64,000 nucleotides of DNA from Cinnamomum chago (taxonomy: Eukaryota; Streptophyta; Magnoliopsida; Laurales; Lauraceae), in NCBI GenBank assembly GCA_038049695.1, contig CP142452.1:109818001-109882000 (forward strand), read 5' to 3'. The notes below the pieces were generated by a model. That model did not search any database and was not told the DNA's origin. It saw only the letters and a program-made list of their open reading frames with translations. Of this stretch, positions 48,749 through 54,865 are shown piece by piece. Position 1 is the first letter of the stretch. Every line of letters begins with the position of its first letter. The position numbers were made by a program, and so were the translations under genes.

Positions 48749-50091
48749 ATGAGAAACAGCACCTGCAGAGGGTATACCATAAGGTGAATAACAGTTCAGG
48801 ACTTAAGAGATTCCCTTTTTTGTCGGACATAGTTTATACATTTGGATGCAATGGAAAACTAGTACTCACAAAGCTAACCCACAAAGATGGGATAAGTCTT
48901 CAATGATGACGTTGATGGTTGTATTTGGATGCAAATTATTCCATCTTGCATGGCTGTCTGCTGCTCTATACATTTCTAAACAAGCAATATCTTGTTTTGT
49001 TTGCAGCGAATTATACCTAGGAGACTAGGGCTGACAATTAAAAAGCTTCTTTTTTTAATTAATTTATTTTTTGGATTGACTTGTGCAGGGACCATTCATC
49101 CTTGTTATCTAGATTGAAGAGAAGAGAAAGATTTTATATAGAAAACGGAGCTCGACTGTTAAAGGAGTCGATCTCTTCTTGTGATGGGAAAGAAAATCCA
49201 ATTCAGATGTTCTCGGAGGAAGAACTTGAAAAAGCAACAAACAACTATGATGATGCGCATATCTTGTTTGAGGGAGGCATGTACACTGCTTACAAAGGTA
49301 CCCATGAAGGCCGCCCAATTGTTGTTAGGAGGTTGAATTTTGTATATGGTGAGGTCATAACCAATGCTTTCAATGAAATCGTTATGCTTTCTCAAATCAA
49401 CCATAAGAATGTGGTGAAGCTATTGGGCTGCTGCATTGAAACACCTGATCCTAGGCCCGTCTATGAATTCATTTCCAATGGAAACCTGCATCAACATCTC
49501 TCTTCTGGCCATCTTTCATGGGAATCCTGTTTAAGGATCGCCACTGAAGTCGCATGTGCAGTTAACTACCTTCACTCAAGAACTTCAAAGTCCATCATTC
49601 ATAGAGACATACGATCCCTGAATATCTTGTTGGATGAGCACTACACTGCCAAACTGGTCAACTTTGGAAATTCGGAAACAGTTGTTTTGAGCGAAACAAA
49701 CTCTGGACTGGATACTATGGGGACCAACGAGCAGATGGACGCCTTATATCTCTCCAGATGTGATGTTCGTGGTTTTGGGAGGGTACTAGTTGATCTTTTA
49801 ACTGGAAATATGCCTCGATCGATATTGAATGGGGACAATGTTGGTGTGCCAGGTTGGGTGGAACTTTTTATTTCATGCATCCAAGAGAACCACCTTTTGG
49901 GGGCACTGGAGTCTGCCACATTAGAAGAGGGAAAACAAGATGAAATTTGTCAGTGGATGGCATGCGCTGAGCTTGCTGAGAGATGCATTCAATGCATTCA
50001 AGATAATGAAGGGCCAACGATGAAAGAAGTGGTGATAGAGCTTACACGGATAAGAGCACTGAAGCAATGTATGCAACTTGAGACACCATGA
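48749..50091 (+). CDS. ZED1-related-kinase-like (RLCK XII-2 type) pseudokinase
   Basis: Proposed exons 48749-48783 and 49089-50091 (AG|GTGAAT donor, TGTGCAG acceptor) join in phase to 345 residues, the ZRK size. The start RRERFYIENGARLLKESISS...NPIQMFSEEELEKATNNYD is typical of ZRK proteins, which lack an extracellular part. Catalytic motifs are eroded: the Gly loop reads FEGGMYTAYKG, the VAIK Lys is replaced (IVVRR), DFG is NFG, and the GT-x-GY-x-PE segment is lost, though HRDIRSLNILLDEHY remains. The main exon is open for over 330 codons, so the gene looks maintained. In Arabidopsis, ZRKs are decoy adaptors for the NLR ZAR1; that role here is inference. It lies 1.7 kb upstream of a WAKL gene with similar sequence (NNYD, YEFISNG, LLDEHY). 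The first exon is the weak part; translation might start elsewhere. Confidence 0.78.
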
Positions 50092-51757
50092 GGTGCACCT
50101 GCTTTTGCACAATCTTTGCATATGGATGAAGGATTGTAAACCCCTGGTTGTTTATTGTTCTATACGACTCAAAATGATGATTTTGATGGGCCCCAACGTG
50201 ACCAGCTGATGCCCCCTAAATACTAAATGAGTGAGGAGGCTGTGTTAACTAATCCCTTTGATTGGCACACAAATCCAACAATGCCAATTTACTGGGCAGA
50301 CACCCAACCCTGTGTTGGATGTTTTGATCTTCCAATCTGGGTTATTTTTGGGGCATGATCTATCTGCTAAGGATCGCAACATATAATTTGGGGCAGGCAT
50401 GAAATACTTTGGAGTTTGCCCGTGCAAGTGGTTTTCCTTGAAATGATTATGTTTCTTGAAGTTGTGTTTAATTGTTGAAAATTTAAATGTCAAATTCCAA
50501 ATTAGAACTCTATAAAAGGAAATGTATAAGGTTCATATCCAAAAAGCCACGACGAGGTTCCAAATTCTTTAGACGTAAGGCCTCTTGGATTCTTGGTGAT
50601 TGGTTTCCCTGCAATCAGGTTTGCCTGGCACTCTAATTACCTGAGACTCTTTATTTATGGTAATGAACAAACAACTTTGACTCGCAGATAAATTGGTTAA
50701 TCAAATCCATGAATCATCATTACGGTAAAACACTCAGATCCACGGAGAAATAGGTCTTTGAGAAAATTTGTTTTCTCTACCCGTTTCCCTCACATCCAAT
50801 TGAGTCTCAGGATTTAAACTGCATCTAATGTCAAATATGAAATGAGAAATGAAGACGAGTCCATTATCCAAAATTATAGGGCCTTGAGCCTTGAGGGCAC
50901 AAAAACAGGAAAATTTACCAGTATTTCCTGTGCTGTTGGCAGGGGCACAGATGTATAACGATTGAGAAAACAACATGTGGGCTTCACTTTAATTTACTGC
51001 CATCCAAAAATAAGTTTAATGTCTTCCATTCGTACAAAAAAGTGGCACGCAACGCAACGAAACAGGGAATGATTGCCCAAACAGTTTAGTAGGCAATCTT
51101 TTGCAGATCTGGGCTTCGTGGAATTGAGGTTCTGGTACAAGGATATGAGCAACTTCTACCCCTCTAAAATCAGGGTACATCACTGGCCAGTGAAATTGCG
51201 GCCAATCTTCAAATGGGGTTTTTTCCCAAACAGTTTGTAAATAATGTGAATTGCCATCGATGACACTTCAATTTAGTTATTTACAAGTATGAAAATGAGC
51301 TTTGTGTCGGGTGGAGGGGCTAATGATTATTGAAATCAGGGGCCTTTCTATTAAACCTGATGAAAAGGACTTCATAAAAATAATGGAACCTTATGGTTTG
51401 CTCTCATGTTGCTAGCTCAAATCCCGCCTCATATTTACCCGTGCACGTCTGCGTAGCTTTCGTAGAAAACCCTCTTCTTAATGAAAGGAAAAAAAAAAAA
51501 GAGTACTTTTACCATTGCAACAGTTGTATCAGTTAAGAAGGGGGAGAAATGTCAAATGCTAACTGTCATCTCAGGATATATGGGTTGTATGTATGAATGA
51601 AACCGTTCGGTTTGGGGGGCTCAAAAGCGCAGTTGATGTCTTCTTTTTAGACGGTTATCAGTCAAATTCAAATATATCGAGTGTTGGATAGGATAGAACA
51701 GTTAACTGTAAATCGGAATAACAGACACATTACATTTTCCTTTCTCCTCAACCCACC
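50092..51757. other. spacer between ZRK-like and WAKL genes
   Basis: Holds the 3' region of the pseudokinase gene and the WAKL promoter. AT-rich; no repeats with clear ends and no gene seen. Confidence 0.5.
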
Positions 51758-52705: not shown

Positions 52706-52749
<44 letters not shown>

Positions 52750-54865
52750 GAGATTCATCCATGATTAGCTGCATTAGCAATTCATATGTCAGTTTGCTTA
52801 AAATCTCTTGGTTCTCCAAGAGTAAAAGAAACAAGAACTGGGGATGCTTTATGGGCCCAAGAGGGCTTTAATTATAGAGAGGTTTGTAGGTACCAAATGG
52901 TGATCACTAATTTCTTATGGTTTTATGATTTTTCCTTTGATATTGCAGATGCAGATGAATGCTTGGATCCAGAGAAAGGTCCTTGTGTGCCAGTTGCTCA
53001 TTGTCAAAATGAAGTCCCTGGATACAAATGCATATGCCCATTTGGTAGCACAGGAGATGGCAAAAGACATGGGTCTGGATGTAGAAAGATACTGCAAGTT
53101 ATTGAAGCAGTTCTAGGTATGGGGAAAAAGTACTGCATCAAGAACAACCCAATGAAACTTTTCCATGCTGAGATGATCTGGGGTGTGAAAGCACCAAACA
53201 GTCAAGTACTGCATTGTTGAATTTACTGTTAGTTGACCTTTGAATCATTCACTACTACTATCGGTTGGGGTCCCCACCTAAAAGCAGGAGGTCCCATACT
53301 TCATACAACATTTAGATTAAAATTGGTTGATATTTATGTCAAATTACACCAAAACTTATGATGTGTGAGATTAAAATTGATTGAAATTTATGTCAGATCA
53401 CACCAAAATTCAAGTGATAATTCCTCTATTTCATGCTTCCTGAATTAGGCGCACACTCCCTCACATTGAAAGTTTAAATGAGGAAATACTATGTCTAGTT
53501 GTCTAGGACCATGGTTTGTTCCCAAAGGTTGAAGGTTCGAAACTGCACCACAACAATGGGGCCACAAGGGATTTATTCGGCTTTCTCTGTGCCCGAATTA
53601 ATCCAACCCTCCCTCGCTATAAAAAATAATAATAATAAAATGCTCCTTTCTTTCTTTTTGACGCGTTTTCCAATTGTCTCTGTGATGCAGGGACATGTCT
53701 GGGTTTTGCAGTTATGCTACTGTGTGTAATGTGGTTTTATTGTGCTCTCAAGAAACGAACATTAATTAAGCTTAAGGAGGAATATTTCCGGCAGAACGGA
53801 GGACTATTATTGAAGCAACAAGTCTCTTCTATTCGTGAAGGCGCCGATCATGCTCGAATCTTCTCCTTGGAAGAGCTCAAACAAGCCACGAACAACTATG
53901 ATAAGAATCGAATCCTTGGCACAGGTGGATATGGCACGGTCTACAGAGGAATCCTCGAGGATGGAACGGTAGTCGCCATAAAGAAATCCAAAGTTATGGA
54001 TCAAAATCAGATTGATCAGTTCATAAATGAAGTAGTAATCCTAACCCAAATCAATCACAGGAACGTCGTCAAGCTCTTGGGTTGTTGCTTGGAGGAAGAA
54101 GTTCCCTTGTTGGTCTACGAATTCATCTCCAACGGTACCCTTCATGAACACATCCATGAAAACATCTCCTCAAACGCCACCCGCATATCATGGCCGGATC
54201 GTTTGAGGATTTCCATCGAAACAGCAGAAGCTCTTGCTTATCTTCACTATGCTGCTTCAATGCCTATCTTTCACAGAGATGTCAAGTCTTCTAACATTCT
54301 CTTGGATGAACACTACATGGCGAAAGTTGCTGACTTTGGGATTTCAAGGTTGGTTCCTTTGGATCAGACACAAATACCTACCTTAGTGCAGGGCACTTGG
54401 GGTTATCTCGACCCCGAGTACTTCCAAACAAGCCAATTGACAGCCAAGAGTGATGTTTATAGCTTTGGTGTGGTTCTTGTGGAACTGTTAACCGGGCAAA
54501 AGCCTGTTTCATTCGATAGATTGAGAGAAGAGAGTAATCTAGCAATGTATTTCTTGTCTTCACTGAAGAGCAAGGAGTTTGCGGATTTCATAGAAGAGAA
54601 GGTATTGAGAGAGGGGGAGATGGAGCAGCTGAGGGGAGTTGTAGAGTTGGCAAGGAAATGTCTGCTTATAAGAGGCGATAAGAGGCCGACGATGAAGGAA
54701 GTGGCTAGAGAGCTTGTTCGGATCGCTGGTCCTGGGAAACAAGCAAGAATATTACAAGTAGCCGAGAAAGAGGAAGAGAACGAGCATCTAGTAGTCGACA
54801 GTGGTGCAGTGACAAATGTTGACTGTCAAAATCTTTCTAAGCCAAGTTTTGACGGCAACCTTTGA
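51758..54865 (+). CDS. WAKL: wall-associated receptor kinase-like protein, 3 exons
   Basis: Plasma-membrane receptor kinase expected to sense cell-wall pectin. Exons 51758-52598, 52949-53116 and 53691-54865 join in phase to 727 residues, the usual WAK length. Order: signal peptide (1-25), galacturonan-binding GUB_WAK domain ([20 protein letters not shown]), Cys-rich region and an EGF-like repeat (about 240-280), calcium-binding EGF (DADECLDPEKGPC, about 281-326), one membrane span (about 339-356), then a Ser/Thr kinase. The kinase is intact: GTGGYGTVYRG, VVAIKK, HRDVKSSNILLDEHY, DFGISRL and GTWGYLDPEYF. Exon structure (GUB, EGF, kinase) is the classic WAK pattern. Intron 1 holds a 38-bp A run; intron 2 holds a SINE. 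Confidence 0.95.
52710..52747. repeat. poly-A tract in WAKL intron 1
   Basis: 38 consecutive A bases, possibly the tail of an old retroposed sequence, though nothing recognisable precedes it. Confidence 0.9.
53488..53640 (+). mobile_element. second SINE copy, in WAKL intron 2
   Basis: Matches the SINE at 11346-11524 along its length: CTAGGAC-A-GGTTTG, a B box GGTTCGAAACT, then TGGGGCCACA and CGGCTTTCTCT in the same order, ending in an A-rich AATAATAATAAAA tail. The A-box region is more decayed than in copy 1 and no target duplication is clear, so this copy is older or 5'-truncated. It is on the same strand as the host gene, about 50 bp before the kinase exon. Confidence 0.75.

Follow-up and report, generated by a model that had tools for sequence, protein, structure and literature searches.

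A degenerate ZRK-type pseudokinase gene beside a WAK-like receptor kinase gene in Cinnamomum chago

The closest described relatives of the gene studied here are Arabidopsis RKS1 (ZRK1) and the other members of the ZRK family (RLCK XII-2). A passage in PMC9479425, citing Gong et al. 2022, states that ZRKs originated from WAKs. A part of PMC9539561 places orthologues of ZRKs in several angiosperm lineages, and ZAR1 and ZRKs have been described in a magnoliid (PMC10533319). As set out in sections of PMC8813719, RKS1 touches the side of the ZAR1 LRR, and other XII-2 members probably preform ZAR1 complexes through conserved LRR-contact residues; the PBL2-binding residues vary. The activation segment of RKS1 bears the PBL contact (an excerpt of PMC6634424). 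We analyzed a predicted pseudokinase gene in a 64,000-nucleotide stretch of the Cinnamomum chago genome (bases 109,818,001-109,882,000 of contig 2; hereafter the window, whose coordinates are used throughout), which lies just upstream of a WAK-like (WAKL) receptor kinase gene. The genome searched comprised 1.06 Gb in 14 contigs.

With RKS1 and the ZRK family, the pseudokinase shares a clade, an N-terminal segment, the kinase fold, and degenerate catalytic motifs. It is nevertheless more degenerate: RKS1 has MIK and DLS, whereas the C. chago protein has lost the VAIK lysine, the DFG aspartate, and the HRDxK lysine. It also differs from the family in its broken P+1 and helix-F motifs and in being six residues shorter ahead of helix F. 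The ZRK family, its WAK origin, and its wide presence in angiosperms together with ZAR1 were known already; what is new here, judging from the sequence, is an unusually degenerate ZRK. The best explanation of the locus as a whole, to which we assign a probability of about 0.68, is that the gene encodes a soluble ZRK pseudokinase that acts as a ZAR1-linked sensor and was not recently derived from the adjacent, ordinary WAKL gene.

Family assignment and motif content

The kinase-fold frame (49063-50091, plus strand) is open for 342 codons and matches Pfam PK_Tyr_Ser-Thr with 84 bits. When the pseudokinase was compared with PDB by phmmer, the top match was Arabidopsis RKS1/ZRK1 (6j5t; 148 bits, E = 3.5e-42), which led the second match, FERONIA (105 bits), by 43 bits. 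The RKS1 alignment starts at residue 11 and spans the pre-kinase segment NG..LL....C.GK..PI..FS. With the kinase exon of the adjoining WAKL as the query, FERONIA came first (232 bits) and RKS1 was 25th of the 60 matches listed (167.5 bits). The first genome matches of the pseudokinase were three tandem open reading frames (ORFs) at C3:132.45-132.49 Mb (L010-L012; 48 to 50% identity), followed by L013 at C10:56.64 Mb and then by WAKLs. The kinase-exon frames of L010-L012, to which the search for membrane-spanning or ectodomain parts was confined, contain no transmembrane stretch. The regions C3:32.45-33.07 Mb and C1:1.04 Mb carry further ORFs of the ZRK type, and the genome holds at least 14 ZRK places, including the window's own.

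Phylogenetic trees agreed with this assignment. The ZRK set was named from the sequences before each tree was built, and duplicate fetches of one place were merged (L081, the same place as L014, was not used). In a 44-row tree, 11 ZRK rows including AtRKS1 fell on one side of a branch with support of 99/100. A 37-row tree with 15 ZRK rows and more WAK-like kinases, from which 18 WAK rows were left out, recovered the ZRK clade with AtRKS1 at 100/98. The Shimodaira-Hasegawa-like approximate likelihood ratio test (SH-aLRT) gave the clade 99 when the long rows L073 and AtRKS1 were removed and 96 on kinase columns alone. The family call of the first-pass annotation, ZRK or RLCK XII-2, is thereby upheld, and on sequence grounds the gene is almost certainly a member.

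The catalytic motifs are strongly degenerate. Compared with the neighboring WAKL, the G-loop reads FEGGMYTA instead of GTGGYGTV, VAIK is replaced by IVVR (the R in place of the lysine is encoded at 49327-49329), and DFG is replaced by NFG (49660-49668), so both substitutions claimed at first reading for this open kinase-fold exon upstream of the WAKL were correct. The same reading had the whole activation-loop GT-GY-PE segment replaced; GTWGYLDPE has indeed become GTNEQMDAL, with the GY.DPE part of the P+1 loop altered, but the GT is retained. The alpha-C glutamate is also retained (AFNEIV), as are the catalytic aspartate and the asparagine of HRDVKSSN, which reads HRDIRSLN and has lost the lysine. 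The stretch before helix F is six residues shorter than in the WAKL, DVYSFG has become DVRGFG, and the end of the C-lobe still resembles WAKL (PTMKEVVIELTRI). At least one canonical kinase motif is absent, which is the feature that a section of PMC9539561 uses to recognize the ZRK family. L010-L012, the nearest relatives among the listed matches, resemble the pseudokinase in having arginine for the VAIK lysine (shared also with L013) and in needing an upstream first exon. They differ in keeping GTxGSIDP, DVYS[FY]G, and a phase-1 intron, and they form a tandem array with no listed WAKL beside it.

The predicted gene model joins two exons on the plus strand. A small first coding exon (48749..48783; peptide MRNSTCRGYTIR) would end at the best-scoring donor, AAG|GTGAAT, and a predicted intron (48784..49088) would end at the acceptor TTGTGCAG|GGACC in phase 2. 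The pseudokinase exon follows (49089..50091; Pfam, PDB match, trees, and motifs), giving 345 amino acids with exon 1. A scan for first exons found 22 ATG/donor pairs in fitting phase; the top three use the donor at 48783 (8/9 consensus letters) with starts at 48689, 48695, and 48749, and an alternative donor lies after 48771 (AGG|GTATAC). We prefer the start at 48749 because the other two in-frame ATGs add a hydrophobic stretch that resembles the pyrimidine tract before an acceptor and is probably intron; no hydrophobic stretch occurs in the 345-amino-acid model from 48749. The pyrimidine-rich CTTAG just 5' of this exon may be the end of an intron in the 5' untranslated region. Neither the pseudokinase nor L010-L012 has an in-frame ATG ahead of the NG motif, so its absence is no sign of decay. 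Reading by eye picks out a small ATG exon 5' of both L011 and L013. In the DNA upstream of the pseudokinase, nothing matched L010-L013 significantly (best E = 0.44).

Constraint and a possible ZAR1 partner

The first-pass annotation had held that a dN/dS near 1 would speak for a decaying copy. Against L010, L011, and L012, the Nei-Gojobori (NG86) estimates were 0.441/1.808, 0.431/2.665, and 0.438/1.823, that is, ratios of 0.16 to 0.24, each averaging the two lineages, with dS saturated. YN00 yielded an estimate for L012 (0.464/2.109) but for neither of the other two. The NG86 ratio against the adjoining WAKL was 0.21, again with saturated dS. In 1,000 runs of a neutral simulation, the frame stayed free of stops in 43% at 2% substitutions, in 2% at 10%, and in 0.1% at 20%. 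The pseudokinase frame has been under constraint for the greater part of its history; these values are also compatible with a recent loss, since dN/dS averages over lineages with saturated dS.

The genome also carries the ZAR1 orthologue that was to be looked for. The locus at C5:573559-576099 scored 1027.5 bits (next best, 537) and contains an 846-amino-acid open frame, in which the one flagged stop is the terminal stop; 448 of 840 aligned positions are identical to AtZAR1. Three of the four ZAR1 residues that we take to be RKS1 contacts (positions 544, 597, 825, and 839) are retained, and V544 is T. A cluster at C5:81.64-82.17 Mb holds twelve more ZAR1-like NLR places with 38 to 40% identity, of which three are partial. 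This cluster is similar to the ZAR1-CIN lineage that PMC10533319 mentions in magnoliids.

On the sensor reading, the ZRK lineage would have shed the ectodomain and transmembrane segment of WAKs in the distant past, leaving a soluble kinase-fold pseudokinase. By analogy with the family, this protein would sit prebound on the LRR of the ZAR1 orthologue. An effector would modify either the pseudokinase itself or an RLCK-VII (PBL) kinase docked on its activation segment, the complex would change, and ZAR1 would swap ADP for ATP and assemble the calcium-channel resistosome. Transcription of the gene, ZAR1 binding, and sensor function are what we infer from described relatives; taken together, ZRK membership and ZAR1-dependent sensing seem somewhat better than an even bet. 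The sensing range of the ancient ZAR1 resistosome is set by ZRKs. A genome that combines ZAR1 with a ZAR1-like cluster and varied ZRKs, one of which has a broken activation segment, makes it possible to ask which regions of a ZRK serve to bind ZAR1 and which to read effectors.

The adjoining WAKL gene and alternative readings

In a single reading frame spread over three exons, the WAKL gene (51758-54865, plus strand) joins a GUB_WAK domain, an EGF-type domain, a transmembrane stretch, and an active-type kinase. Exon 1 (51758..52598) has a signal-peptide-like start and the galacturonan-binding GUB_WAK domain (1.4e-12). Exon 2 (52949..53116) holds the EGF-type domain, for which both models scored slightly below the Pfam cutoffs (EGF_3, 28.0 bits against 28.5; EGF_CA, 22 against 27). 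Exon 3 (53691..54865) contains a hydrophobic, probably transmembrane stretch, read by eye, and the kinase (Pfam), in which motif reading found every catalytic motif, as the first-pass annotation had claimed. Judged by its sequence, this is an ordinary WAKL receptor kinase gene, and the pseudokinase was not recently derived from it. The two share a related kinase domain (44% identity, same strand), but WAK/WAKL kinases such as this one and L035, a WAKL on contig C1, have an ectodomain, a transmembrane stretch, and all catalytic motifs and form a separate clade. When WAKL exon 1 was used as the query within the window, it matched only itself and one chance stretch (E = 0.57), with no ectodomain remnant before the ZRK. 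Downstream of the WAKL lies a DC1-domain gene (57431-58147), whose closest relatives are two pieces at C1:19.713-19.714 Mb (75% and 79%); a further relative (66%) is at C1:109.30 Mb. The WAKL and DC1 genes are probably part of a duplicated block shared with C1, because DC1 relatives there sit about 0.25 Mb from L035, the nearest relative of the window WAKL.

The similarities that had been taken to link the two neighbors held up in part. Of the three shared phrases, LLDEHY does connect the WAKL with ZRKs (8 of 14 other ZRK rows, 0 of 38 other WAK rows). YEFISNG and ATNNYD are absent from all 14 other ZRK rows and present in 18 and 3 of the 38 other WAK rows, respectively, and the supposed KATNNYD reads QATNNYD in the WAKL. 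The CAG|GGAC acceptor border is present in both genes, but we rejected it as evidence of common origin as it is out of phase, 2 in the pseudokinase and 1 in the WAKL. Read by eye, the acceptor before the transmembrane exon is in phase 1 in the window WAKL, five other printed WAKLs, and the ZRKs L010, L011, L012, and L073 (the intron print has no row for L016, L070-L072, L074, L083, and L084). Because this phase-1 intron is common to both families, it supports the shared descent of ZRKs and WAKs. A sliding comparison for gene conversion between the neighbors gave no strikingly raised stretch; identity in the top 40-column window was 0.68 (L035 there, 0.66). Nor does the WAKL stand out among WAKs as unusually close to ZRKs: ZRK-type states occupy 7 of the 52 diagnostic columns, the same number as in L035, L067, and L078 and fewer than in L079 (9).

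Several observations weigh against the sensor reading. AtRKS1 is the sole proven ZRK in the trees. The pseudokinase branch is long (0.84 to 0.94), which makes its position within the ZRK clade unsure, and in the 44-row tree it meets the long branch of L073, with a warning from the tree program. Placement on the WAK side in general was only marginally rejected there (log-likelihood difference [dlnL] 15.7; approximately unbiased [AU] test, 0.052). Among the 15 ZRK rows, the pseudokinase alone has DVY[SC][FY]G broken and alone lacks the HRDxK lysine. Its intron is in phase 2, as opposed to phase 1 in the four ZRKs and six WAKLs printed, and its first exon is uncertain for this reason. PBL docking may be lost, because the activation segment is degraded and six residues short. 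The gene could be a ZRK that was long constrained but has recently died and is unexpressed; on this view, its broken P+1 and helix-F motifs and unusual intron phase mark the onset of decay. No other of the 15 rows has GTxGxxDP and the DVYSFG-type motif both broken, L013 is itself damaged, and the 43% of simulated frames without stops at 2% substitutions leave room for a young pseudogene. Yet 342 codons are open, which few simulated frames achieved at 10% or 20%, and the C-lobe end is still WAKL-like; we regard recent death as unlikely, if well worth keeping in mind. The protein might instead serve the ZAR1-like cluster on C5 or be an inert competitor rather than a sensor. A second ZAR1-like set is present, and a broken activation segment could retain ZAR1 binding but lose PBL binding; we consider this improbable.

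Two further readings give the neighbor a larger role. Adjacency, shared strand, and 44% identity might suggest a recent, decaying duplicate of the WAKL that became ZRK-like by convergence. However, a clade of the two was rejected in the 44-row tree (dlnL 58, AU 4e-7), so that the kinase-domain tree called for at first reading separates the pseudokinase from its neighbor. A ZRK-type segment precedes the kinase domain, and nucleotide identity to the neighbor (51.8%) equals that to L035 (52.0%; 58.2% to L010). This origin deserves almost no credence. Alternatively, the contig 2 locus could be a relic of the original WAK-ZRK tandem, with an early-branching ZRK still beside a source-type WAKL. Of the at least 14 ZRK places, the window's own alone lies within 5 kb of any of the 57 WAK-type places listed; the others are at least 4.4 Mb from any such place or lie on a contig for which the list has no entry. 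When 5 loci were placed uniformly, such proximity arose in 0.26% of trials, a post hoc figure for a pairing picked after the fact, with the length of contig C12 assumed and a gene density that would raise it. The WAKL has LLDEHY and falls outside the starred WAK subclades in both trees. A clade of the other ZRKs without the pseudokinase was tolerated (dlnL 3.9, AU 0.093 in the 44-row tree; dlnL 4.6, AU 0.21 in the 37-row tree), so the pseudokinase may branch first. In contrast, joining the ZRKs to the window WAKL was disfavored in the 37-row tree (8.5 log units below the best tree, AU 0.052), more so than joining them to L035 (dlnL 1.5, AU 0.415) or to both WAKLs (dlnL 7.5, AU 0.087). In the best tree, 18 canonical WAKs stood on one side of a branch with weak support (42/88). 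Local DNA similarity is not above family level. The probable duplicated block on C1 showed no ZRK in L087 (2,101 bases that include the L035 ectodomain exon, with about 1.26 kb upstream read), nor among the genome matches listed for the pseudokinase. The proposal of an ancestor-like receptor kept beside its decoy derivative is therefore not sustained, and we think a tandem relic very doubtful. Should synteny show the adjacency to be truly ancient, the ZRK family would have its birthplace here; the present data lean against this. Titles and abstract openings of related literature make no mention of a ZRK-WAKL tandem pair, a weak negative from searches not aimed at that question.

Other ZRK-like genes and upstream sequence

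A separate set of eight ZRK-like ORFs occupies C3:32.45-33.07 Mb (L070-L072, L074, and L083-L086), some with HRG or HRN for HRD. The L071/L072 pair had an NG86 dN/dS of about 1 (0.069/0.063) and L070/L071 one of about 0.5, values suggestive of rapid or relaxed evolution. L013 (C10:56.636 Mb), the fourth close ZRK relative, carries an in-frame TAG close to its end, its acceptor is unclear, and it is perhaps decaying. No relatives were found in viral_contigs. Upstream of the ZRK gene, window positions 33418-40746 contain a DDE_Tnp_4-type transposase fragment on the minus strand and interrupted frames of a copia-type retroelement.

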